This document shows, piece after piece, positions 21,737 to 52,269 of a DNA stretch of 64,000 bases. Both the position numbers and the translations under genes were made by a program. The stretch spans positions 122,350 to 186,349 of IMG/VR virus record IMGVR_UViG_3300017971_000194, one strand, 5' to 3'. How positions within the stretch are numbered: the stretch's first letter is position 1; each line of letters begins with the position of its first letter. The notes below the pieces were generated by a model. That model ran no database searches. It had not been told where the DNA came from and worked only from the letters and a program-made list of their open reading frames with translations. Source of the DNA: a virus.

Positions 21737-22165
21737 CTAACTCCTCATGTCTTTAACGGTCTTGTCAATAACCTCATTTTTTGATCTTGGACCAGACCGT
21801 TCTTTTTCAATCAAAGGTTGATACTGAGCTGCAACCTGAGAACCCTTCTCCATGACTGCTTGATCTCTCACCTGTTCCCAAGAATCAGCCTTTTGCCCTT
21901 TATAATTAGGAACCAACTTTGCCCCTTCTCCATACCTCTCATTTTGTTTGAGAGCCATATCCACAGATCGTTGCTCCCGTGCCCTTTTCTCTTTCCAATC
22001 CCTGCCGGTCCAACCCCAACCTTTCAACGAAAAATTCACTGAGCCAGGGTTAAAGACTCGATCCATCTGATTCCCACAGCTACATAATATTTCAGAATCT
22101 CTTTCTTCAACGGAAAGATTCTTCTTTGTCATTTCCCCACATTCACATTCAAAAGTATAGATCAT
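21737..22165 (-). CDS. FmdB-type zinc-ribbon protein, copy 2
   Basis: A 142-residue protein. It starts MIYTFECECGEM and has CSCGNQMDRVF about 20 residues later, giving a CxC...CxC ribbon related to the FmdB-type protein at 3484-3900. VNFSLKGWGWTGRDW follows, a tail seen also in simplified form in the other copy (FNFSSSR). The rest is charged and helical. The start overlaps the end of the SWIM-type gene region by only a few bases. Its role in the head module is unknown; zinc binding is inferred from cysteines. Confidence 0.65.
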   Translation of the reverse strand: MIYTFECECGEMTKKNLSVEERDSEILCSCGNQMDRVFNPGSVNFSLKGWGWTGRDWKEKRAREQRSVDMALKQNERYGEGAKLVPNYKGQKADSWEQVRDQAVMEKGSQVAAQYQPLIEKERSGPRSKNEVIDKTVKDMRS

Positions 22166-22168
22166 AGG

Positions 22169-22900
22169 TCACCACCTATATGAATAATTTTTCACTAAGT
22201 CAAACACAGCATAAACATGCTTACACACCAAATTGTTACCCTTTGGATCTCTGATACGAGGAGGTGTTGCAGTTCCTTTTGAATTGCCATCTAAATAACC
22301 ACCTCTTCGAGCATGGTACTCTGGCCCATAATAGATCCAAAATGGACAAGAACAAGACAATTTAAGGTCAGCTTTATCTAGATTTTTGATCCTTCTATCT
22401 TTTGCTTCAGCCTTCACAGTCACTACATGAGTACCCTGACCACCTCTTGATTGTACCTCAAAAGTATATCTATTGTTTTTAGGCATAGATCTGCGTAATC
22501 TGGTACGACAACTCCTAGCCTTGTTTTTCACATCCCTAGACAACCGCCCCTCAATATCTTTCATGGTCACAGCAATTCTACTTGAATGATATTTAGGACT
22601 CAATATTAAAGGAGAGGTCTCACACAAAAATCTAGATACTACAGCATTTGCTATGAGATGATCACGATATTCCTCTGAATCAAGTTCTATAATAACAGGG
22701 TCTTCATACGCTCCTTGCCCTGGGTAAAAACTTAATTCACCTCTCATATCTTTTTCCACAACAGTATCAAAATGCTTTGGTTTACGATACATATCCTCTA
22801 TGTCTAGTATATCACCTTCACCCCCATTAGATCTGTCAGAATCAGGAGGGGCTACTAATGTTCTATAACCAGAAGGATACTCGTAATCATATTCCCACAT
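22169..22900 (-). CDS. SWIM-type zinc-finger protein, 243 aa
   Basis: The C-terminal 75 residues contain LKLSCSCPFW, a glycine- and basic-rich spacer, and LVCKHVYAVFDLV, which is the CxC-x(n)-CxH arrangement of SWIM zinc fingers with an unusually long spacer of about 45 residues. SWIM domains bind DNA or proteins. The N-terminal part is acidic, the middle basic (RSCRTRLRRSM). GAGGTTTCC precedes the start. It lies close to the major capsid gene and may contact DNA inside the head or at the portal. The domain is seen; the role is inferred. Confidence 0.6.
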   Translation of the reverse strand: MWEYDYEYPSGYRTLVAPPDSDRSNGGEGDILDIEDMYRKPKHFDTVVEKDMRGELSFYPGQGAYEDPVIIELDSEEYRDHLIANAVVSRFLCETSPLILSPKYHSSRIAVTMKDIEGRLSRDVKNKARSCRTRLRRSMPKNNRYTFEVQSRGGQGTHVVTVKAEAKDRRIKNLDKADLKLSCSCPFWIYYGPEYHARRGGYLDGNSKGTATPPRIRDPKGNNLVCKHVYAVFDLVKNYSYRW

Positions 22901-22956
22901 GGAAACCTCATCACAGTTCTGTTATAGAATAAAATAAAAGGAAAACAAGGAGAGGA

Positions 22957-23928
22957 TCAACTGAGTGCTTCTGGATAAGACTGTCGAATTACACGCTTGA
23001 AAGTATCAGTCTCAGCCAAAAAGATAGCCCTGATGATATCAGGTTTCTCTGAGAATTCTTTGATACTTTCGGTCTTATCTTTTGTAGATGCATAAAAATC
23101 CCAAGATTCTGGGAATTCAGGACACATCTTTTTGACTGTGGCCACAAGCATATCATCTATCTTGGGCTTTCTCCCTCGACGAGGGGTATCATCAGAATCA
23201 TCTGAATCAACTTCTACTTCAACATTGACTTCACGGTTACGGTCATGAACACTACCTACCTCAATAGCATCTTCAGAAGTGGCAATCATTTGACTCTGTT
23301 TACCATCAGTCTCTCGTGCCCCAGCAGCTTTTGGTGATATGTTTTCTTGCTTAAAAACGATCCCTTCCTGCATCACTGAAGTTGTCTTGGCTTCACCTTG
23401 AACATCTTCAATGTCCTTGATCTCTCTATTGACAGCAGATAAAGTCTCTTTAGCTACCAAGGTACGACCTGTTACCTCTCCTTCACGACCCACATTTCTC
23501 TTGCCAATAGTACGTACCTGAGCAATCTCACCCATTTCTTCATCAACTTCTATACCAACAGGATCTCTACCAGTAGCTTGCTCTTTAGCTCTGTCATGTA
23601 ATGCTTGTCGGTTTCTAAATGAACCAACAATTTGTTCATCAACCGCAGAAACTACAGTTTGAAACTTAGAATCTTTTTTATTAGGGGTGGCTGCTGAAAC
23701 TTGCATATCAGCAGACTGTGGATGATAACTAGGTTCTGAACCACCTTCTGGAGCTAACCATCCTGCTTTAATGACAGTCTTGAGTCTAGGAAGAACTACA
23801 GCAGGTTCCCCTTCAATCTCAGCTCTATAACCATCAAAAACAATTCGAGTCCCAGCTTCAATTTTCTGTTCAGTATCACCAATAGTGAAACCCACCTTAG
23901 CTACATAACATTTCGCTTCTCTTGACAT
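22957..23928 (-). CDS. Acidic protein downstream of the major capsid gene, 323 aa
   Basis: An N-terminal beta domain (YVAKVGFTIGDTEQKIEAG, PAVVLPRLKTVIKAGWLAPE) is followed by about 170 polar, probably disordered residues and a basic patch RRGRKPKID. The C-terminal 70 residues form a helical domain (VKKMCPEFPESWDFYAS, PDIIRAIFLAETDTFKRVI). GGAGGATC precedes the start. It follows the major capsid gene after a strong hairpin. It may be a head protein or an internal DNA-associated protein. No family was recognised. Confidence 0.55.
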   Translation of the reverse strand: MSREAKCYVAKVGFTIGDTEQKIEAGTRIVFDGYRAEIEGEPAVVLPRLKTVIKAGWLAPEGGSEPSYHPQSADMQVSAATPNKKDSKFQTVVSAVDEQIVGSFRNRQALHDRAKEQATGRDPVGIEVDEEMGEIAQVRTIGKRNVGREGEVTGRTLVAKETLSAVNREIKDIEDVQGEAKTTSVMQEGIVFKQENISPKAAGARETDGKQSQMIATSEDAIEVGSVHDRNREVNVEVEVDSDDSDDTPRRGRKPKIDDMLVATVKKMCPEFPESWDFYASTKDKTESIKEFSEKPDIIRAIFLAETDTFKRVIRQSYPEALS

Positions 23929-41144: not shown

Positions 41145-41765
41145 ATGAGGGTCCTTGGTCTTGACCCCTCGATGACCAACTATGGGTGGTGTTTGATAGA
41201 TGACCAGGCATCACCTATAGTTGTGAATCGAGGAAAATTCCAGACCGACTCGAAGATGTTGTTCATAGATCGCTACGTCTATCTTCGTGAGTCAATCTAT
41301 GATCTCTGCATCAATACTGAAGATCTAACCGCAGTAGGTATTGAAAGTCCTCCATTTGGAGAGCTTTGGTCAGAAGGTCTATATGGATTGTTTTTATTTG
41401 CTATGGAAGCCCTTCACAAAGCAAAAAAGAACGTATACTTTTGGGACCCGTTGACAGTGAAAAGTAGAGCCAAAGAAATATTGGGTAGAGAGAAGGGCAA
41501 GATGTTCAAAGTAGATATGATAGATGCTGCAAAAAAAGCTTCTGATGTAAAAGGGGGTTGGAACTCTGACACTGCTGATGCTTTTAATGTAGCCTATCTT
41601 ACCTATAGATTCATTCTTTATTTTAATGGGACCACCCCTGAGGAAGAACTTACCCCAAAGGAAAAGTGGATATTTCTTGGTGTGAAGAAGGTAAAAGGGA
41701 AGTTGAAAAAACGTGGGATGGCTTACCGTGAGAATGACAGATTTTTTCTGTTTGGAGAAAATTGA
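41145..41765 (+). CDS. RuvC-like Holliday junction resolvase
   Basis: A 206-residue protein with RNase-H-fold acid motifs: VLGLDPSMTNYGW (Asp7), AVGIESPP, and SDTADAFNVAY, in the order of RuvC/RNase-H resolvases. Such enzymes cut four-way DNA junctions made in recombination, which phages must resolve before packaging. The start follows the upstream stop by 4 bases; the stop abuts the RecA start. The C-terminal 50 residues are basic and extra to the RuvC fold (KKVKGKLKKRGM). Confidence 0.7.
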   Translation: MRVLGLDPSMTNYGWCLIDDQASPIVVNRGKFQTDSKMLFIDRYVYLRESIYDLCINTEDLTAVGIESPPFGELWSEGLYGLFLFAMEALHKAKKNVYFWDPLTVKSRAKEILGREKGKMFKVDMIDAAKKASDVKGGWNSDTADAFNVAYLTYRFILYFNGTTPEEELTPKEKWIFLGVKKVKGKLKKRGMAYRENDRFFLFGEN

Positions 41766-43007
41766 ATGCCAAAAGCAAAAGCAAAAACAAAAAGTGAAAA
41801 AACTAATGCTCTGATAGAAGCTAGAAAAGCATTGAGAAAACATAAAGAGGTGGATTTCAAGAATAGAAAAGACCCTAATCCAACTGAACAATTCCCCCAT
41901 GTATCAACAGGGTCCATCATAGTCAACCATCTGATTGGAGGTACGATCATTCCTTCATCTGGACTATCCATATGCCCTGGTGTTCCTCGTGGTCGTATCA
42001 TTGAGGTATACGGTCCTGAATCAAGTGGTAAGACAACATTGGCATTAGCTGTTGCAGCACAAGCACAACAGGCTGGTGGTGTAGTAGGGTTCCTTGATTT
42101 TGAGAATGCTTTACATGATGGTTATGCTCAAGCCCTTGGTGTTGATTATGATAATGATCTGATTGATATCTGGGTACCATTCTGTATGGAAGAGGGTTTT
42201 GAAATTATCAATACATGGGTAGAGCATAATCTTGATGCCATAATCATAGACTCTGTTTCTGCTATGGTGCCTAGAAAGGTGCTGGAGGGAGAGGCTAGCA
42301 AGGATGAGCAAATTGGTCTTCGTGCCATAAAGATGTCTCAGTTCCTTGGTAAACTGGTTAATTGGTTACGAGGGAAAGATACATCTGTGATCTTTGTGAA
42401 TCAGATACGATCTGTGATCAAAACCTCCAAATATGATACTAGACCTGATGAAACAACCAGTGGTGGAAATGCTTTGAAGTTCTATTCTACTATCAGGTTA
42501 AAACTACAGAAACGGGCACAGGAAGTTTTGGAAATCAAAGATTCATTGACAGGCCAGAAAAAGAAAAAACCTATTGGTACATATACCAAAGTTACCTGTG
42601 TCAAAAATAAATTGGATAGTAAACAAGGGGATACTGGTGAAATCTTCATCAGGTTTGGCAAGGGTATTGACAATATCAGGACTATTTTGGATATTGCCAT
42701 TTTCCGTAAAGTCATCACAAAAAATAGTTCCTGGTTGTCATATAAAGAAGATGATAAAAAGGTTGGGTTCAAGGTACAGGGAAAAGAGAAGGTACAAACT
42801 CTGTTCAGAGAAAATCCTGTGGTGTATGAAGCTATTAAGAGTGATGTGCTTGAAAAAATATCCTTTGAGAGTAATGTTGAAACTGAGGGTGCCGTAGAGA
42901 GTGACGAAGGGGATATAATTCTTGAAGAAGAAGAGCAAGTGGAAAATGTTGATACTGAAGAAATTGTTGTTGATGAAGATGGTGAGGTGAAAGAAGAGAC
43001 TCTATGA
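41766..43007 (+). CDS. recA: RecA recombinase
   Basis: A 413-residue RecA-family ATPase. Walker A is GPESSGKT at residues 83-90, followed by FLDFENALHDGYAQALGVD, matching FIDAEHALDPIYARKLGVD of E. coli RecA. Walker B is AIIIDSVSAMVP, and the L2 region VIFVNQIRSVI with DETTSGGNALKFYSTIRL. The DE-rich tail (EEEEQVENVDTEE) is longer than in E. coli RecA. It makes strand-exchange filaments on ssDNA. The gene overlaps the next by ATGA. It has a basic N-terminal extension of about 40 residues. Confidence 0.93.
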   Translation: MPKAKAKTKSEKTNALIEARKALRKHKEVDFKNRKDPNPTEQFPHVSTGSIIVNHLIGGTIIPSSGLSICPGVPRGRIIEVYGPESSGKTTLALAVAAQAQQAGGVVGFLDFENALHDGYAQALGVDYDNDLIDIWVPFCMEEGFEIINTWVEHNLDAIIIDSVSAMVPRKVLEGEASKDEQIGLRAIKMSQFLGKLVNWLRGKDTSVIFVNQIRSVIKTSKYDTRPDETTSGGNALKFYSTIRLKLQKRAQEVLEIKDSLTGQKKKKPIGTYTKVTCVKNKLDSKQGDTGEIFIRFGKGIDNIRTILDIAIFRKVITKNSSWLSYKEDDKKVGFKVQGKEKVQTLFRENPVVYEAIKSDVLEKISFESNVETEGAVESDEGDIILEEEEQVENVDTEEIVVDEDGEVKEETL

Positions 43008-44170
43008 TAGATATTGGGATCAAGAATTTCCAATCAATTAAAGATGTATCCTTTAGGATTAAAGGATTCACAGTAATTGTTGGGAAAACAAATATTGGTA
43101 AGAGTGCTATAATACGTGCTATCAAAGGTGCGTTGAGGAACTCAAAGGGAAGCTACTATATTCGAGAGGGTGAAAAAACTTGTACTGTCACTCTTCAAGA
43201 TCCCAATGGTTTCTTTCTTTCCTGGGAAAAAGGGAAAGGGAACCAATATACCATAGGTAATGAATCCTACAATAATGTTGGATTTGAAGTGCCATCTGAA
43301 TTGGCAGATGCTGGATTCCGAGTCATCACTACAGGTAACAAAGATCTCTCCCCACAAATAGCTGATCAATTCAACCCATTGTTTCTGGTGAATGAAACGG
43401 GTGGAGCCTGTGCTGATATCCTATTTGATATCTCTCGGATTAATATTTTGAATGGTGCTCAAAGATTGATCGAAAAAGATCAACGTAATCTGAAGAGTAC
43501 CCTTAAGACTCGGAAAGCTGACCTCCAAAGGGTCCAAGAAGGTATTGAGACTCTCAAAGAAGTCCCTGACATAAGGGCTCGATATGATGTGTTGAGATCT
43601 GAGGGAGCTGATCTAGAGGAATTGAAGGTAGAACTGACAAGGATTTTGGGACTCGAAAGTAAGCTAAAAAGATGTGGTATTAGGGTGAAGTCTCTGACCA
43701 AAATTGATACCATAGTTGTCCCAGAAGAAGATTTGAATTCACTCATTGTGGAAATCTATGAAATACAGGATTTTCATGATAGGTGTAAGAAATTTCAACC
43801 TGAAATCAGATCAATGATGGAGAGTGACTTAGCACAAATCGAGATACCAACTGAAAACTTAGATGCTGATTTGGAAGAAGCTCGTGAACTTGAAAGCCTG
43901 TCTCGACAACTAATTCCAGCTTTGGATTCAGTGTCGAGACTTGAAGGAGTAGAGTCTATCCAAATACCCAAAGTCTTAGAACTAGATTTTGACTCTGTGG
44001 TTTGGATGCAGGGCAAGATTGAGTCTTTAAAGACTATCAAACGTCAATTTGTGGCTTTGGAGAAGGAGTCTTCAGAGATAGAATCTGAATTGAGAGAGTT
44101 AGATAATGAAATAGCAGACGTGAAAGCTCAGCTTAAGGTCTGCCCCTTGTGTGAGACTTCGTTAGCATGA
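43004..44170 (+). CDS. Rad50/SbcC N-terminal half, ending at the zinc hook
   Basis: A 388-residue protein with Walker A GKTNIGKS (residues 27-34) in FTVIVGKTNIGKSAIIRAI, Q-loop-like NPLFLVNETGG, then a long coiled coil from about residue 150. It ends with Cys380 and Cys383 in CPLCETSLA, the CxxC zinc hook found at the tip of the Rad50 coil. The reading stops there, so the second coil, signature motif and Walker B are absent; they are in a separate gene at 47454-48074. With Mre11 next door, this makes a two-piece DNA-end processing complex. A truncated, inactive copy is the other possibility, but the second piece argues against it. Confidence 0.85.
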   Translation: MIDIGIKNFQSIKDVSFRIKGFTVIVGKTNIGKSAIIRAIKGALRNSKGSYYIREGEKTCTVTLQDPNGFFLSWEKGKGNQYTIGNESYNNVGFEVPSELADAGFRVITTGNKDLSPQIADQFNPLFLVNETGGACADILFDISRINILNGAQRLIEKDQRNLKSTLKTRKADLQRVQEGIETLKEVPDIRARYDVLRSEGADLEELKVELTRILGLESKLKRCGIRVKSLTKIDTIVVPEEDLNSLIVEIYEIQDFHDRCKKFQPEIRSMMESDLAQIEIPTENLDADLEEARELESLSRQLIPALDSVSRLEGVESIQIPKVLELDFDSVVWMQGKIESLKTIKRQFVALEKESSEIESELRELDNEIADVKAQLKVCPLCETSLA

Positions 44171-45120
44171 AGAAATATCGGTTCATCACTAGATCTGATT
44201 GCCATCTTTCTGACAGACCTCCTGTCTCTAGGATCGATGACTACAAAGAAGCAATACTTAATAAGTTAGATCAGATTTACAAATTAGCAGTAGACCATGA
44301 ATGTGATGCTATTCTTGATGCTGGTGATTTCTATCATGTGAAAGCACCTACAAAGAACAGTCATGAACTGACTGGTGATGTGGCTCTTTTACATAATCAG
44401 TACAAGGTTCCAGTGTATGCTATTATTGGCAATCATGATGTGATGTATAGCAATGTTGATACTATTGATAAGCAACCACTAGGGGTTTTGTTCAAGACCA
44501 AGACATTCAATAGGCTGCAAGATATCACAATTGGTGATGTTCGTATAATTGGTATTGATTATCGTGTAGATGTGGATGAAGAATTGCTCAGTAGATGCAA
44601 GAAAGGTGATGAGAAGATACTCATCGCAGTGTTCCATGGTTCAGTTGCGGATCTCCCATTATATCCAGGAGAGAAGTTCTATAGTTATAAGAAACTTGCT
44701 GAACTAGACCCTGACATTTGGGTTCTCGGTCATATACATAAAGACCAGGGTATCCAAGAAGTTGAAGGTAAGCATTTCATAAATCTTGGGGCTATCTCTA
44801 GGGGGGCTTTGACATATGATGACATTACTCGCACCCCTCGTGTAGGTTTCATAGAGATCACTGTGGATGATGGTGATGTGAATGTCCAAGTTACTCCTAT
44901 TGATTTATTGGTGAGAGAAGCAAAAGAAATTTTTGATTTTGAACGTAAAGAAAAGGTCCAACAAGAGACTCGTAAGATTGAAGATTTCATTGAGAATCTC
45001 ATCAAAGTATCTACAGAGGACCCAAAAGATAAACTGACACAGAGTATTTCATCTTTAGGGCTGGCTCAAGAGGTGAAAGACACTATATACCATTACTTGG
45101 AGGCTGCTGAAAATGCCTAG
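44167..45120 (+). CDS. sbcD: Mre11/SbcD-type nuclease
   Basis: A 317-residue metallophosphatase with the five expected motifs in order: RSDCHLSD, LDAGDFYH, IIGNHDVMY, VFHGSVADLP and VLGHIHKDQG. These bind two metal ions and act on DNA ends. The C-terminal 70 residues (about 250-317) are a helical part for the Rad50 contact. The ATG overlaps the stop of the Rad50 N-half as ATGA, and the stop overlaps the Cas4-like nuclease start. It is likely the nuclease of the split Rad50 complex. Confidence 0.9.
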   Translation: MKKYRFITRSDCHLSDRPPVSRIDDYKEAILNKLDQIYKLAVDHECDAILDAGDFYHVKAPTKNSHELTGDVALLHNQYKVPVYAIIGNHDVMYSNVDTIDKQPLGVLFKTKTFNRLQDITIGDVRIIGIDYRVDVDEELLSRCKKGDEKILIAVFHGSVADLPLYPGEKFYSYKKLAELDPDIWVLGHIHKDQGIQEVEGKHFINLGAISRGALTYDDITRTPRVGFIEITVDDGDVNVQVTPIDLLVREAKEIFDFERKEKVQQETRKIEDFIENLIKVSTEDPKDKLTQSISSLGLAQEVKDTIYHYLEAAENA

Positions 45121-45952
45121 AGCCCTTACATTTTATGCATTCAAAAATTATGTTGAATGCCCTTTGAAGCATCTGAGACAGAATATAAATAGGGACAAAC
45201 CTATTACCATGCAAGATGAGTATAATACTGTTTATGGTACAGTAGTTCAGAAGATGTTTGAAATGTTTTACAATGACCAGATTTGGAGGAAAGGGAAAGA
45301 AGCCAGAACTATCCTGAAAGATAAAGTCCCCAAAGTATTTGCCGAAATCGTAGCTAAAAAGAACATCTTTTGGGGTGAACATGAGGGTGGGAAACAGCTA
45401 ATTATAGATGAATGTATTGTAGCTGTAGATCATGGTATCGATACGGTAAGAGACTATAAACTGTTAGCTCCATATGCAAAATCTGAAGTCAATACCTATG
45501 CATACATTACCAAAGCTGATCAAATTGGTGGTCGAATTGATTTCGTGTTTAAAGGTGATGGTGAGATCAGGATATTTGATGGTAAAGGGAGCAAGTATAA
45601 AGACAGGTATCTAGATCATAGACAGCTCTTTTGGTATGCTTTGTCTTATTACCTCTTGCATAGAAAAATGCCAAACTCTTTATGGTATTGGTTCTATAGA
45701 TTTCCAGAAGATCCTCTATTGGAAGTAGAATTCACTATCGATACTCTGAAGGAATTGAAAGCAGAAATTATCGATGTAATGCAGAAGATAAAGAAGCGTC
45801 AATTCAAGGCAACCCCAAGTAGTAAGGCTTGTAAGTTTTGCCCTTATGTTGGGGAATGCAAATTTAAAGCAGATAAGACCAACAAGAACAAATCTATCCT
45901 TCCAGAAGGTACTTCAGGATTTGTGGAGTTAGGTCTTGATGATGACGAATAA
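45113..45952 (+). CDS. PD-(D/E)XK nuclease of the Cas4/RecB type with Fe-S cysteines
   Basis: A 279-residue protein. It starts YAFKNYVECPLKH, whose Cys matches the first iron-sulphur cysteine of Cas4-like proteins, and ends with CKFCPYVGEC, which gives the other three. Between them are GGRIDFVF, RIFDGKGS (D-x-K) and QLFWYALSYYLL, the QxxxY-type motif of the RecB family. Such enzymes cut ssDNA or trim ends. GGAGG precedes the start. It follows Mre11, so a joint end-resection role is likely. Confidence 0.8.
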   Translation: MPRALTFYAFKNYVECPLKHLRQNINRDKPITMQDEYNTVYGTVVQKMFEMFYNDQIWRKGKEARTILKDKVPKVFAEIVAKKNIFWGEHEGGKQLIIDECIVAVDHGIDTVRDYKLLAPYAKSEVNTYAYITKADQIGGRIDFVFKGDGEIRIFDGKGSKYKDRYLDHRQLFWYALSYYLLHRKMPNSLWYWFYRFPEDPLLEVEFTIDTLKELKAEIIDVMQKIKKRQFKATPSSKACKFCPYVGECKFKADKTNKNKSILPEGTSGFVELGLDDDE

Positions 45953-45987
45953 AAATACACTCTTGGTAATATGACCTGGAGGAAATC

Positions 45988-46281
45988 ATGTCCGATGTAG
46001 AAGCGTTGGCCCGAAGATGGTCAAAATTGAAAGAGAAACGAGCCGAACTTGTCTCAAAACGGGACAAGATTAAGGGTCGTTTAGATGCAGAGAAACAACA
46101 GTTAAAAGAAATTGTTGAAGAGATAAAAGCTAAAGGTCTTGACCCTAAAAAGCTAAGCTCTACTCTGGATGAAAAGAAACAAGAGCTAGAAGATCAGGTC
46201 AATGCTTTTGAAGAGAAAATGAAAGCTCTTGAAGAGAGCTTATCTCAATTCGATGATCAGTTTGATGATCTAGGTCTATAA
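45988..46281 (+). CDS. Small coiled-coil protein, 97 aa
   Basis: The protein is almost entirely coiled coil (KEKRAELVSKRDKIKGRLDA, then KKQELEDQVNAFEEKMKAL) with an acidic end FDDQFDDLGL. TGGAGG lies upstream of the start. It sits between the nuclease and the clamp, within the interval that separates the two Rad50 halves, and could bridge them or act as a separate replication factor. The acidic tip may dock to the clamp or SSB. It is a real gene by its position and ribosome site. Confidence 0.6.
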   Translation: MSDVEALARRWSKLKEKRAELVSKRDKIKGRLDAEKQQLKEIVEEIKAKGLDPKKLSSTLDEKKQELEDQVNAFEEKMKALEESLSQFDDQFDDLGL

Positions 46282-46293
46282 AAGGAGATACAA

Positions 46294-47457
46294 ATGGCTT
46301 CAATGGAACTTACAGTAGACAGGCAAGAATTTCTACGTGCTCTTTCGACACTGGAATTTTCCAGCTACAATACAGCATCACAGTCTATTAGGTTAGAAGT
46401 GCTCAACCCTACTAAAGGTGTTCTGTACTCTTGTTCAGGACGTTTTGCTACCAGAGCATATTTCAGCATAAAATCCACAGATGGTGAAATACCAGAAGAG
46501 AATGCTGTCATTATACTTGGGACAGGTGTTGAGAACTTTGTCAGCACTCTTCCTTCTGAGGAACTCAAGATTCAGTACCTTGAAAAGAACCTTCGAATCA
46601 GAGGTATGTGGCTTGATTCTGGGAAAGAGAATTTCACAGACCAGAAATACCCATTCTTGACAGTCAAAGTCCCAGCAATTGAAAAACTCTTGAAGGACAC
46701 TCAAGACCTCGGAGAGATTCATGCTGATGTCCTTGTTGAAGGGGTTAAGTACATCAAGAGTTTTTCTAACAAGGAAATTTTCTCTCCTAGAGTTCTTGTT
46801 TCAGGAGATAAGCTCATTTATATGGATGAGATCAAGATTGGGGTCTTTGAATCATCTCAGGGATTTCCAGCTCTTAGTTTTGGTATGGATGATATGGCTC
46901 CTATCCTTTCTTTCCTGACCCAATACAAGGGTCAGAAGATCAAGGCTCTTCAATTTGGCAATGGTTATGCCCTGGAGAGTGAAAACGGATCTGTGCTTGT
47001 CTATGCTTTCAATGTGAAGGCTCAAAAGGAATTGGAAGAAGAGCTTTCACTTGAAGATGAACCTCCCATCACATTCAACATCGAGAACAAGAAGTTTTCA
47101 AATATCCTACAGCTACTGAAGACAAAAGGTTCACAACTGTTTGACGAGATGGATATCACCATCCATCCTGAAGGATTTTTGGAGATGGTTCGACCTCCAA
47201 ATTTCCAGTCTCGTTTGTCTGTTTCTCCCCAAGACATGCCTGAAGAAGCATTGACAGTCAAGGTTCAGTTTTCAAACCTCATCAGTGTGTTGAGAGCTTT
47301 CCCTAAAGATACAATCCTAATGGGCATCAACCCTGAGGATAAGAAGTTTAAGATCATTGGATCTTTGGACATCTCCCTTGGGGAACCAGAAGAGGGAGAA
47401 GAAGAGGAAAAGGTTTCCTGTCGAGTCATGAATATACTGTCCTATTGGAATGAATGA
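46294..47457 (+). CDS. dnaN: Sliding clamp, DnaN beta-type
   Basis: A 387-residue protein, the length of bacterial beta clamps (about 366-380), with three-domain periodicity. Near the start are MELTVDRQEFLRALSTLEF and RLEVLNPTKGVLYSCS; later IYMDEIKIGVFE and the end of domain 3, GSLDISLGEP. There is no single catalytic motif for clamps, so the call rests on length, strand pattern and the delta, delta' and tau/gamma genes beside it. AAAGGAGATACAA precedes the start. It would hold the polymerase on DNA; no polymerase gene lies in the window. Confidence 0.7.
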   Translation: MASMELTVDRQEFLRALSTLEFSSYNTASQSIRLEVLNPTKGVLYSCSGRFATRAYFSIKSTDGEIPEENAVIILGTGVENFVSTLPSEELKIQYLEKNLRIRGMWLDSGKENFTDQKYPFLTVKVPAIEKLLKDTQDLGEIHADVLVEGVKYIKSFSNKEIFSPRVLVSGDKLIYMDEIKIGVFESSQGFPALSFGMDDMAPILSFLTQYKGQKIKALQFGNGYALESENGSVLVYAFNVKAQKELEEELSLEDEPPITFNIENKKFSNILQLLKTKGSQLFDEMDITIHPEGFLEMVRPPNFQSRLSVSPQDMPEEALTVKVQFSNLISVLRAFPKDTILMGINPEDKKFKIIGSLDISLGEPEEGEEEEKVSCRVMNILSYWNE

Positions 47458-48074
47458 TGTTAGGTGATCTTGGAGACAAAATATCCCGACTAGAAGGGGT
47501 GCGATCCAAGTATCTTCGAGACGAATCTTCATTGGAAGATGAGATTAAGAAGATAGAGCACCAGATGTCTGTCCTAGAACAGGCTTCAGAGGCCATAAAA
47601 ACCATTCTGCAAGCTTTAATCCACGAAGACAAGGAAAGTATCAGGGCTATCATCACAGAGGGCTTACAGGCCATTTTCGAGGACCAAGACCTTTCCTTAA
47701 AAATTGATTCAAGCATCAAACGTGGGAAGGTCAACATCGATTTTTTACTTACTGATGGGATGAAGGGGATCGAAGGAGATGTCCTTGATTCTTTTGGGGG
47801 TGGTGTAGCCAATATAGTGTCTCTTCTTTTCCGGTTCATAGCTTCAATGAAGCTGAAGCTATATCCCTTCCTAGCTCTCGATGAATCTTTAGGGAATGTT
47901 TCGGAAGAATACATTGATAATGCAGGATCTTTCCTGAAGTCATTATGTAAAAAGACTCAATTTGATGTATTGCTTGTAACTCATCAACCAAAGTTCCTGA
48001 GCTTTGCAGACACAGCTTATGCTGGAGATTTGGATGGCTCAAAACTAGTTTTGAAAGAGATAAAAGGACCATGA
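47454..48074 (+). CDS. Rad50/SbcC C-terminal half with Walker B
   Basis: A 206-residue protein overlapping the clamp stop by ATGA. A short coil at residues 1-60 is followed by the ABC signature-like DSFGGGVANIVSL (about 112-124), Walker B FLALDESLGNVS with Asp143 and Glu144, and the switch histidine in LLVTHQP (His177). These are the C-terminal elements of Rad50, missing in the gene at 43004-44170. It lacks a CxxC hook. The two halves together would give one ATPase head; the descending coil is much shorter than the ascending one. Confidence 0.82.
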   Translation: MMLGDLGDKISRLEGVRSKYLRDESSLEDEIKKIEHQMSVLEQASEAIKTILQALIHEDKESIRAIITEGLQAIFEDQDLSLKIDSSIKRGKVNIDFLLTDGMKGIEGDVLDSFGGGVANIVSLLFRFIASMKLKLYPFLALDESLGNVSEEYIDNAGSFLKSLCKKTQFDVLLVTHQPKFLSFADTAYAGDLDGSKLVLKEIKGP

Positions 48075-49932: not shown

Positions 49933-50451
49933 ATGGCTACAGAGTATTGGTACTCAGAGGAAGTGAAGGAAATGGCAGAGGGGATCATTGCCAAGAGAGC
50001 CCCTGAGTTAGTTGATGCCAAGATTGTCTACGTCATGAAAGAGAAATGCTCTAAGAAGGCAGGGAAGTTGGTTCTTGGTAAGACAAAGAAAGCTTCTCCT
50101 ATGCAGAATTTCTTTTTGGATGGTTGTCATTACATCATTGAGTTAGGTGCTGATGGTTGGCAAGAGCTGAATCCACGTCAAAGAGAAGCAGCATTGTATC
50201 ACTATCTTTGCTATTGTTTTGTAGATGTTGATGAAGAAACCAATGAGTATATCTACAAAATGAGAGATCCTGACATCCAAGAATTCTCAGAGGTGATCAG
50301 CACCTATGGATTCTGGCATGAAGACTTGAAGAAGTTTGGTCGTAATGTCAAAGTTCTTGATCTTGATGAGGTTGATGGAGACCAAAGTGTTGATATCAAG
50401 AAAGAGAAAGGGAATAACACATCCCCTCAGTTAGTAGAGGCTAGTGCATAA
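49933..50451 (+). CDS. Putative phage metallopeptidase relative with altered active site
   Basis: A 172-residue protein with the plan of the putative phage metallopeptidase family, which as I remember it has HELxH followed later by HDIEEF. Here the matching segments are HYLCY (His90, Tyr91, Tyr94) and RDPDIQEF (Pro113), so the Glu and two His zinc ligands are replaced. The remainder, EFSEVISTYGFWHEDLKKFG, is kept. It is probably a non-enzymatic descendant with another role in the replication operon. AAAGGAGATAAG precedes the start; the stop overlaps the tau/gamma start. Confidence 0.6.
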   Translation: MATEYWYSEEVKEMAEGIIAKRAPELVDAKIVYVMKEKCSKKAGKLVLGKTKKASPMQNFFLDGCHYIIELGADGWQELNPRQREAALYHYLCYCFVDVDEETNEYIYKMRDPDIQEFSEVISTYGFWHEDLKKFGRNVKVLDLDEVDGDQSVDIKKEKGNNTSPQLVEASA

Positions 50452-51764
50452 TGCTTGACCTAAAATATCGTCCGTTGCAGTTCAGTGATGTGCTGGGCCA
50501 GGAAAAGATCCGTAATGTGCTACAGTCCAGGTTGGAAGGTGGTACAGACCAGGAAACATCATATGTCTTTTCTGGACCACATGGGAGTGGTAAGACAACA
50601 TTAGCTCGAATCTTTGCTAGAGCTATGCTTTGTCAGAACCGTCAGGGAAATGAACCTTGCAATACCTGTGATTCATGTAAAAACTTCATGAATGAAGACC
50701 ACCTCAATTTCGAAGAAAGAGATGCTGCTGGTCATGGTACCATTGATTGGGTTCGTGCTACGGTCGATAATCTATCCTACAATCTTTTTGGTGGGAAGAA
50801 AATCATTCTGTTTGATGAATCTCACCGTATGAGTAAAGATAGTCAAGATGTTCTACTAAAGCCTCTTGAGGATAGGAAACTAATTGGTATCTTCTGTACT
50901 ACAGAACTCAGAAAAATGCGTCCTGCTATAAGGTCCAGATGTGAGCTGTTACAGTTAGAGAGGATACCTTCACAGGTCATTACGGATCGATTGGAGTTGA
51001 TTTGTAAGCAGGAAGAATTTGAGTACGAGCATGAAGCCTTAGAATGGATTGTGAGCCATAGTAAAGGTCATGTTAGGGACGCTATCAGTTCTTTGGAGCA
51101 AGTGAGTAAGATAGGTGGTATTTCGACTCAGAACGTAAAGGACTATCTAGGTATTGGGTGGTCCACTGAGATATTGGGTCTCATTGAATCTATACTGTCT
51201 GATGATAAGGCTAAAACACTCACCTTGATCCAGGAGATGTTGTTCAAATTATCTCCTCAAGACATATACTCTAACATCCTTGAGAATCTTGTTCATCTAC
51301 AATATCTCCATCAAAGATTGATCGTACCCAACTATTTTGATCTAAACCAAGGAGTTGCAATCTTGGGACAGTTTGATATAGAATTGGTTCAGAGATTCAT
51401 GGTTTCATTTAATAGATCTTTAAGGTTTCTAGATCGTTCCATGTTAATATGTGAGGTTCTGTTGACTATAGAGAAGCTACATCGTGGTTACACTACAGAA
51501 GCTCAGAGTATGTCTACTGACATACGTCCAGCCTCTAAAGCTACATCAACAGCCAAATCCAAACCTCTACCAAAAGACGTGGGGGATAATGACCCTGAAT
51601 ATCTTACCCCTGTGGATCATGCTGGGATAAATCCTGAAAAACGAAACGATGGTTATAAACCGACACGTAAGAACACTCCAAAGAAGATTGAAGTTAGCAC
51701 TACAGCCGTAAATATGAGTGCTTCAGCCTTCAAGAAGAGATTTGCTAGTACATGGGGAAGATAA
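50451..51764 (+). CDS. dnaX: Clamp-loader tau/gamma subunit (DnaX-like)
   Basis: A 437-residue AAA+ protein with LKYRPLQFSDVLGQE at the start, P-loop GPHGSGKTT (residues 42-50), the zinc module Cys61, Cys70, Cys73 and Cys76, KKIILFDESHRMS as Walker B, and RPAIRSRCELLQL as the SRC sensor. It is the ATP-driven core of the clamp loader. The tail after residue 360 is short compared with E. coli tau, so it corresponds more to a gamma-like form. No frameshift sequence was recognised. Start in TAATG overlap. Confidence 0.88.
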   Translation: MLDLKYRPLQFSDVLGQEKIRNVLQSRLEGGTDQETSYVFSGPHGSGKTTLARIFARAMLCQNRQGNEPCNTCDSCKNFMNEDHLNFEERDAAGHGTIDWVRATVDNLSYNLFGGKKIILFDESHRMSKDSQDVLLKPLEDRKLIGIFCTTELRKMRPAIRSRCELLQLERIPSQVITDRLELICKQEEFEYEHEALEWIVSHSKGHVRDAISSLEQVSKIGGISTQNVKDYLGIGWSTEILGLIESILSDDKAKTLTLIQEMLFKLSPQDIYSNILENLVHLQYLHQRLIVPNYFDLNQGVAILGQFDIELVQRFMVSFNRSLRFLDRSMLICEVLLTIEKLHRGYTTEAQSMSTDIRPASKATSTAKSKPLPKDVGDNDPEYLTPVDHAGINPEKRNDGYKPTRKNTPKKIEVSTTAVNMSASAFKKRFASTWGR

Positions 51765-51768
51765 AAAC

Positions 51769-52269
51769 ATGGCATGGGCTGTATTTGAATTAACAAGTTG
51801 GGGTGAAAAGGAGGATACAGACCGCCTGAAAAAAGAAATCCAATCTTCCCTTGGTGAAGTAGATATCTTCATTCCATTTCTAAAAAATGAAAAAGGTCTA
51901 GACTTATCATTAGTTAAGGGCTACATATTTATAGATATTAGCAACACCCCACCTCATAAGTTGTTTCAATTAGAAGGCACAAAGTACATCAAGCGGTTGC
52001 TGACTGAAGACCAGCAGATAAAGGGTAATACCCAAAGAAGAGTGTCTCCAGTGGACGACTCTTACGTGAAGGATCTGAAGACACAATTTAGGTCTGTTTT
52101 AACTTCAAATTTCAAGAAAAAGGATAGGGTGACAATACGAAGTGGTTTGTATAAAGACCTTCCTGGGACTATTATTGACATAGATAAATCTATAGCTTCA
52201 GTGTTAATTGAATTGAAGTCTCTGAAGATACTGATTGACATCCCGACCTTTAATTTATCAAAAAGGTGA
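51769..52269 (+). CDS. NusG-like transcription factor
   Basis: A 166-residue protein from ATG 51769, with GGGGAAG upstream. It begins MAWAVFELTSWGE and has DIFIPFL, LVKGYIFI and TKYIKRLL, the order of a NusG N-terminal domain. The C-terminal part FKKKDRVTIRSGLYKDLPGT and SVLIELKSL is a KOW/SH3-like barrel. NusG paralogues bind RNA polymerase and make it read through terminators or pause. It lies before two tandem sigma-region-4-like genes, so the group may control phage transcription. The domain plan is clear; the target is inferred. Confidence 0.8.
   Translation: MAWAVFELTSWGEKEDTDRLKKEIQSSLGEVDIFIPFLKNEKGLDLSLVKGYIFIDISNTPPHKLFQLEGTKYIKRLLTEDQQIKGNTQRRVSPVDDSYVKDLKTQFRSVLTSNFKKKDRVTIRSGLYKDLPGTIIDIDKSIASVLIELKSLKILIDIPTFNLSKR

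Follow-up and report, generated by a model that had tools for sequence, protein, structure and literature searches.

In a 64,000-nucleotide stretch of viral DNA, bases 122350-186349 of IMG/VR virus record IMGVR_UViG_3300017971_000194 (186,349 bases in total; this whole stretch is hereafter the window), we found Rad50 encoded by two separate genes, and we consider it highly probable that they belong to an Mre11-Rad50 end-processing complex in which Rad50 is made as two polypeptides broken just after the zinc hook. The N-half (388 amino acids (aa); 43004..44170, plus strand) carries a Walker A motif, GKTNIGKS, at residue 27, then a helical arm and a terminal zinc-hook motif, CPLC, at residues 380-383, and the protein ends at residue 388, five residues past this motif. 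The C-half (206 aa; 47454..48074, plus strand) consists of one long helix followed by the signature FGGGV at residue 114, the Walker B motif LALDES at 140 and the switch-histidine motif VTHQP at 175, and no CxxC is present in it. The motifs of a Rad50/SbcC head are therefore all found, Walker A in the N part and the signature, Walker B and switch histidine in the C part. Both open reading frames (ORFs), the hook motif that ends the first and its absence from the second had been pointed out in an earlier note on this DNA, and were verified. Between the halves lies an Mre11/SbcD-type phosphoesterase of 317 aa (44167..45120, plus strand; Pfam Metallophos, expectation value (E) 3.2e-13; phrog_100, SbcD, 9.6e-16) in which the phosphoesterase motifs of that family are present.

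The division of the gene recurs in other genomes. A tblastn search of 50,697 phage records placed both halves in the same three, namely LR745208 (485 kb, uncultured), where the gene order is as in the window with insertions, Tunturiibacter phage Tunturi_5 and Microbacterium phage Magritte. Scanning viral contigs with single proteins gave only identical copies in two records (identical N-half and C-half proteins are held by one 358-kb and one 90-kb record), while small alignments reached a wider family, and those derived from the tblastn finds led to 58 C-half and 63 N-half loci in IMG/VR. Profile searches over the ORFs of related loci matched 111 N-half and 110 C-half ORFs (duplicates included), none of them shared, so that no chain joining the N and C lobes by a long antiparallel coil, as in Rad50/SbcC, was seen; as a control of sensitivity, both profiles do match single RecN-like ORFs in bacterial loci. 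A contig scan with eight N-halves of a second set (group 2), from which the best 80 of 177 relatives were taken and which is thus no census, returned lower matches that were mostly RecN/RecF-like and were set aside after profile searches had found both profiles in one frame. CxxC stands 2-20 residues before the end in 77 of 78 full-length N-halves (non-redundant after clustering at 90% identity, partial ORFs left out), where about 0.003 per protein would be expected by chance from the cysteine content; the only exception is Magritte.

Two such frames could also arise through faulty assembly or sequencing, or from one Rad50 gene in decay, and in one relative the C-half is indeed cut by an in-frame stop (L051:9995-10613, 150 + 49 aa). 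We give this explanation virtually no chance, because the break falls just past the hook in 77 of the 78 N-halves, other genes lie between the halves, the motifs are intact, the halves are more than 20 kb apart in 14 of 53 records and independent genomes refute it. Judged from these sequence comparisons, the split is genuine, as the earlier note had argued from the intact motifs, and a sequencing error joining the halves, looked for through the independent genomes, was ruled out.

The 14 records come from searches of 54 whole phage records (19 and 35), each picked for a locus holding one half or both, some of which duplicate one phage (e.g. G000 and G001). A C-half was found in all 54 and an N-half in 53, the lone miss being G034, whose operon is cut at the contig end. 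Where the halves are more than 20 kb apart, the distance reaches about 224 kb in record coordinates, and frameshift fusion is excluded there. In G009, G010, G012 and G047, for example, Mre11, a Cas4-like nuclease, a small coiled-coil protein, a clamp-like protein and the C-half are clustered, with the N-half elsewhere behind RuvC and RecA; in Tunturi_5 the N-half lies behind RuvC and UvsX, and the C-half upstream of primase, clamp-loader and antiterminator genes. In the 54 records neither half was matched a second time at comparable score, the extra matches being weak or pieces of the same gene (the strongest extra C-half match, in G004, has an E of 2.7e-6). Co-occurrence and separation together indicate that the halves are encoded as separate proteins and retained as a pair. 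That they are separate ATPases or regulators sharing no head, as the unlinked genes of the 14 records might suggest, is very improbable, since the halves are complementary (Walker A in one, signature and Walker B in the other), co-occur in 53 of 54 records and have no comparable second copy.

Among the loci holding N and C together, 66 are distinct by the last 60 residues of N, and an Mre11-type ORF is present in 65 of them. The order N-Mre11-Cas4-coil-clamp-C, which is that of the window and had been suggested as something to seek in other phages, was found in 42 of the 66, and N-Mre11-C (by profile) in 13. In cultured phages, Microcystis phage Mvi-JY20 has N-Mre11-coil-C and Bacillus phage vB_BboS-125 has N (gp32), an AP2 protein, the coil (gp34), C (gp35), gp36 and Mre11; the last gene lacks annotation in the record (L132:10247-11227; NC_048735.1, about 22423-23403). 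A Thermoplasmata-labelled contig of a metagenome-assembled genome (MAG) carries N, Mre11, a coil-like ORF and a separate C-half (L134:8001-11926). Two Mre11 ORFs are about twice the usual length and possibly contain inserts (L081:11350-13416, 688 aa; L047:3557-5884, 775 aa), and in LR745208 TnpB-type transposon-like ORFs were recognized by eye beside the cassette (L006:21332-22042 and 22135-23571, minus strand). From these sequences, a large phage family and some bacteria, described below, appear to make Rad50 as two proteins broken at the zinc hook.

The predicted structures resemble the two parts of a Rad50/SMC head. The C-half model (mean predicted local distance difference test (pLDDT) 96) is a single helix (2-74) followed by the C-lobe, and its best second-look match was Rad50 1f2u_B (Z 15.2, root-mean-square deviation (rmsd) 2.6 over 144 residues), with 9a9j_B at Z 14.0 (rmsd 4.0 over 166 residues). 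The N-half model has a head (about 1-130) and helices at 133-184, 187-231, 244-273, 286-312 and 329-376, and matched 1f2u_C over 124 residues (Z 11.3, rmsd 2.9) and 9a9j_A over 167 residues (Z 11.0, rmsd 5.7). Both 1f2u and 9a9j have a Rad50 head whose N and C parts are distinct chains; two-chain heads thus exist, and the split Rad50 probably assembles its head from two chains as well. All 53 N-halves scanned match phrog_16465 and 45 of them phrog_77 (SbcC), while all 73 C-halves scanned match phrog_15167 and 30 of them phrog_77. Half of 76 C-halves measure between 202 and 210 residues, with start codons as picked by script.

Several results weigh against assigning the proteins to Rad50. SMC, RecN and RecF heads also match the models: the N-half head with its first helix matches Rad50 and SMC N-lobes about equally, SMC chains tie for it (6qpw_A, Z 11.9; 3kta_A, Z 11.8), and plain Foldseek placed an SMC chain, 5h66_B, at the top for the C-half. 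The Rad50 signature is usually LSGG, and that of the C-half is FGGG. Pfam SbcC_Walker_B matches only 1 of the 73 C-halves, 24 of the 73 also match an ABC-transporter PHROG, and Rad50_zn_hook (Pfam) reaches only E 0.078 on the window N-half. The N-half model has a predicted template modelling score (pTM) of 0.44, with low confidence at the arm breaks 234-242 and 275-280, and two further N-halves, in records G032 and G037, are hookless, making three in all with Magritte. As SMC, RecN and RecF heads match too, the name Rad50 depends in addition on Mre11 and the hook motif. No SMC hinge-like block is present among the predicted elements of N or C, and RecF, RecN or OLD, which have a single-chain head and, in OLD, a Toprim domain, were rejected, as there are two chains here and no Toprim match in either half.

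The arm of the N-half differs from a simple coil. The earlier note had read it as a single ascending coil of about 230 residues and the C-half coil as descending for about 60; the models replace these with five helices and with the helix 2-74. Its conclusion that a normal hairpin is impossible was too strong, for on the models the first N helix (52 residues) could plausibly pair, over a short stretch next to the head, with the free part of the C helix, which is of similar length; the part that stands is that the N arm beyond the first helix has no partner in the predicted C-half. Arms are 109-354 residues long (84 arms), and they tend to differ in length by increments of roughly one unit (R 0.43 near 45, n=80, kinship not corrected). 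Repeats are clear in the arms of four MAG N-halves (lags 39 and 78, z above 11, prolines every 39 residues), weaker in the jumbo-type N-halves to which that of the window belongs (lag 41, z 5.2, prolines about every 41 residues) and weak in group 2 (lag 46, z 3.3); intein-bearing ORFs were dropped from these statistics. A repeat-built N arm that needs no matching second strand fits these data and the models. In L137-L140 and L259 the arms display tandem units of about 39 residues with regularly spaced PP (L259 by eye). Inteins were noticed at the N-half Walker A in L041:3358-5604, L030:2662-4782 and L103 (LAGLIDADG_3 about 5e-11, weaker Hint_2).

The terminal CxxC itself is well conserved. C380 and C383 are invariant across the 47 sequences of alignment A4, made up solely of jumbo-type N-halves (group 2, Tunturi_5 and hookless Magritte excluded), and at least 90% conserved in the 53-sequence alignment A6, which includes them; a place of the motif at the coil apex is putative. 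It is possible, and we think unlikely, that CxxC does not act as an apical hook between molecules, and that the N arm instead folds back so that the motif lies elsewhere or binds zinc with another partner. The prediction of the arm as several helices with breaks, the 39-residue repeats of some members and the stepping of arm lengths would agree with this, but the motif is CPxCG-like, which we take to resemble Rad50 hooks (Rad50_zn_hook giving the E of 0.078 noted above), and the last helix ahead of it spans 48 residues.

Directly upstream of the clamp-like gene the window encodes a 97-aa coiled-coil protein (45988..46281, plus strand), a putative helical hairpin whose turn, of GxDP type, is conserved. 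In 13 of 13 N-Mre11-C loci read by eye, C is directly preceded by a coil-like ORF of about 75-110 aa, and four further loci with Cas4 and clamp and no coil label have one ahead of the clamp; L120 and L122, anchored on spurious clamp matches, were omitted from the eye reading. Together with the 42 loci of jumbo-type order, this upheld the view that a small coil protein between the halves is their regular companion. Comparison of the two coil groups gave an E of 4.1e-10 versus 6.6e-6 for the best coiled-coil control of the same genome; coiled coils inflate such scores, and by this sequence measure the groups are related above that background. A coil model matched 23 of 24 records at E up to 0.01, nine of the 24 contributing their own sequence to the model; matches in W02, G036, G033, G040 and G011 are weak (above 1e-4), that in Tunturi_5 (W02) being no convincing coil in this search, and G045 has no match but an ORF in the coil position. 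Matches persist in the three genomes with a hookless N-half, so a coil tied to the hook was not borne out, and this persistence counts against the coil serving solely to hold the hook.

The neighbours of the coil vary. It sits between the Cas4-like nuclease and the clamp in the 42 jumbo-type loci, stays with these two in L046 and L063, several kb from C and tens of kb from N, and persists in the hookless genomes, in Magritte beside the nuclease gene; in 11 loci with an isolated C, reading by eye showed no coil-like ORF ahead of it (L008, L010, L049, L053-L056, L058, L059, L065 and L068, some of them near-copies). All of this would suit an accessory of the Cas4-like nuclease or the clamp rather than a Rad50 subunit, an alternative to which we assign a minor share of the probability: in operons without Cas4-like or clamp genes the coil is directly before C (the 13 loci, the Microcystis and Bacillus phages and bacterial chromosomes), and L116 and L125 have it between N and C, as G011 has it after N (weak match). 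Across the set the coil is regularly accompanied by the split Rad50-Mre11 module, whether its immediate neighbours are the Cas4-like and clamp genes, Mre11 and C, or N. We moderately favour the coil as a further member of the complex; that it completes the second arm, as the earlier note had proposed, we hold to be less likely than not. The clamp, which the earlier note had described as cotranscribed with the split Rad50, was dropped as a core part and is optional, because no clamp gene lies between coil and C in minimal operons; in the Microcystis phage and chromosomal operons this is read from the abutting of the genes.

The remaining genes of the window form a same-strand run with the module: RuvC-like, RecA, N-half, Mre11, Cas4-like nuclease, coil, clamp-like and C-half. 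The RuvC-like resolvase (41145..41765, plus strand; phrog_159, 7.2e-15) is an upstream neighbour often kept in jumbo-type phages, and the RecA/UvsX recombinase (41766..43007, plus strand; Pfam RecA, 5.2e-55) overlaps the N-half start by ATGA. The PD-(D/E)XK or Cas4-like nuclease has 279 aa (45113..45952, plus strand; PDDEXK_1, 1.3e-18; phrog_69 exonuclease, 2.6e-13; cas4, 2.4e-8). The putative DNA polymerase sliding clamp (387 aa; 46294..47457, plus strand) is weakly assigned (phrog_947, E 0.0014), with no hit in Pfam (E up to 1) or NCBIfam (E up to 0.01), and its position is conserved in the jumbo-type operon. ATGA start/stop overlaps at RecA/N, N/Mre11 and clamp/C are as expected, from sequence, for coupled translation of neighbours, and the start and stop codons of Mre11 and the Cas4-like gene also overlap. 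Downstream, a clamp-loader-like ATPase and a NusG-like protein were recognized by eye (50451-51764 and 51718-52269), as beyond the Tunturi_5 C-half.

We propose the following assembly. The N-half and C-half would most likely associate through their lobes into one ABC ATPase head, in which the C-half helix would pack with its base against the first helix of the N-half, as it does when Rad50 is a single chain. ATP would be sandwiched between a pair of these two-chain heads, with Mre11 bound at the base, two N-halves may meet through their terminal CxxC, and the small coiled-coil protein is a probable further subunit. Beside RecA, RuvC and the Cas4-like exonuclease, the phage complex would resect or trim DNA ends; because of these neighbours and the established role of Mre11-Rad50, its function is most likely end processing for recombination and recombination-dependent replication.

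The same module is found on bacterial chromosomes. Abutting N-Mre11-coil-C genes are present on MAG contigs titled Desulfobacca, Deltaproteobacteria, Pseudodesulfovibrio and Parachlamydiaceae. A C-half profile built from these four loci, whose source genomes are included in the counts, matched 4 of 7 genomes in the family of G052 and 6 of 148 in its phylum, and in the family of G054 25 of 59 at E below 1e-70, plus three marginal near 1e-3. Twelve genomes contain 13 loci with Mre11, coil and C side by side; 11 of these loci also show N, whose CxxC stands 15-26 residues from its end, and two are cut before N or have no match. Around L259, the chromosomal locus covered by a scan for cellular neighbours, which lies on a 4.26-Mb contig, 9 of 10 scanned neighbours have cellular Pfam matches (asparagine synthase, chemotaxis, release-factor domains). 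In the 59 genomes the C-half occurs in 25 and an SbcC match below 1e-30 in 8, with an overlap of 0 (p 0.008, kinship not corrected), and the split Rad50 may fill an apparent gap in bacteria without SbcC. Against such a replacement, none of the SbcC matches passes the curated cut-off (ten candidates per genome scored), and 26 of the 59 genomes have neither a C-half nor an SbcC match; two of the 25 C-half genomes have weaker SbcC matches (1e-13 and 3e-10; G102 and G092). Among six MAG genomes, G050 (Thermoplasmata) gave an SbcC match at 4e-33 and G055 a weak one.

Taking these results further, we tentatively entertain, at odds somewhat below even, a heteromeric Rad50 of N-half, C-half and coil hairpin that is old, common to diverse phages, archaeal or bacterial MAG contigs and bacterial chromosomes, and replaces SbcCD in the last, with an arm of about 40-residue units on the N chain alone and no covalent return strand. 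If this three-chain, unit-built form were true, the arm could be extended by whole units and each half-head exchanged or opened independently. Rad50 and SMC proteins are usually pictured as one polypeptide in which a long hairpin links the head to the hook. That many genomes keep a naturally divided form, broken at the hook and in some cases with its halves encoded far from each other, raises the question of whether tethering of ends and control of the nuclease require an unbroken coil. The textbook single-chain machine has here a natural multi-part version open to test, with parts that are small, separate and should express easily.

In the literature, SbcC/SbcD are described as practically universal in jumbo phages and split polymerases are reported, with no split SbcC in the parts of that article available to us (PMC7824862). 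Likewise, no account of a split Rad50 was met in the accessible portions of PMC12153180, PMC11924767, PMC6375668 and PMC1193525, or elsewhere in the literature searched, preprints and most subscription papers lying outside the search. The nearest account is in PMC3175470, of which we likewise draw on portions: Mre11/Rad50 fusions occur in viruses and bacteria, that of Bacillus phage 0305phi8-36 (A7KV18) being without one SbcC P-loop segment, and a split Rad50 is not described in those portions. A7KV18 ranked second in the viral fold search with the N-half. As far as those portions go, the fusions are like the present genes in being rearranged Mre11-Rad50 genes and unlike them in that Mre11 and Rad50 are fused (PMC3175470).

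The two halves also bring together phrog_16465 (exonuclease) and phrog_15167 (ATPase), which match all 53 N-halves and all 73 C-halves scanned, yet are listed as separate, differently named families. Single-chain Rad50/SbcC working with Mre11/SbcD is known as the archaeal Mre11-Rad50 complex, E. coli SbcCD and T4 gp46/gp47. The split Rad50 is like these in its predicted half-head folds, Walker A and B, switch histidine, CxxC motif and nearby Mre11 gene, and unlike them in having two polypeptides broken at the hook, a short C arm, an N arm that is interrupted or repeat-built and an extra small coil gene. In its putative head of two chains it is like the Rad50/SMC heads 1f2t, 1f2u, 1ii8 and 3kta, whose separate chains we take to be laboratory constructs; unlike in these, the division here is natural, and the hook motif stays on the N chain.

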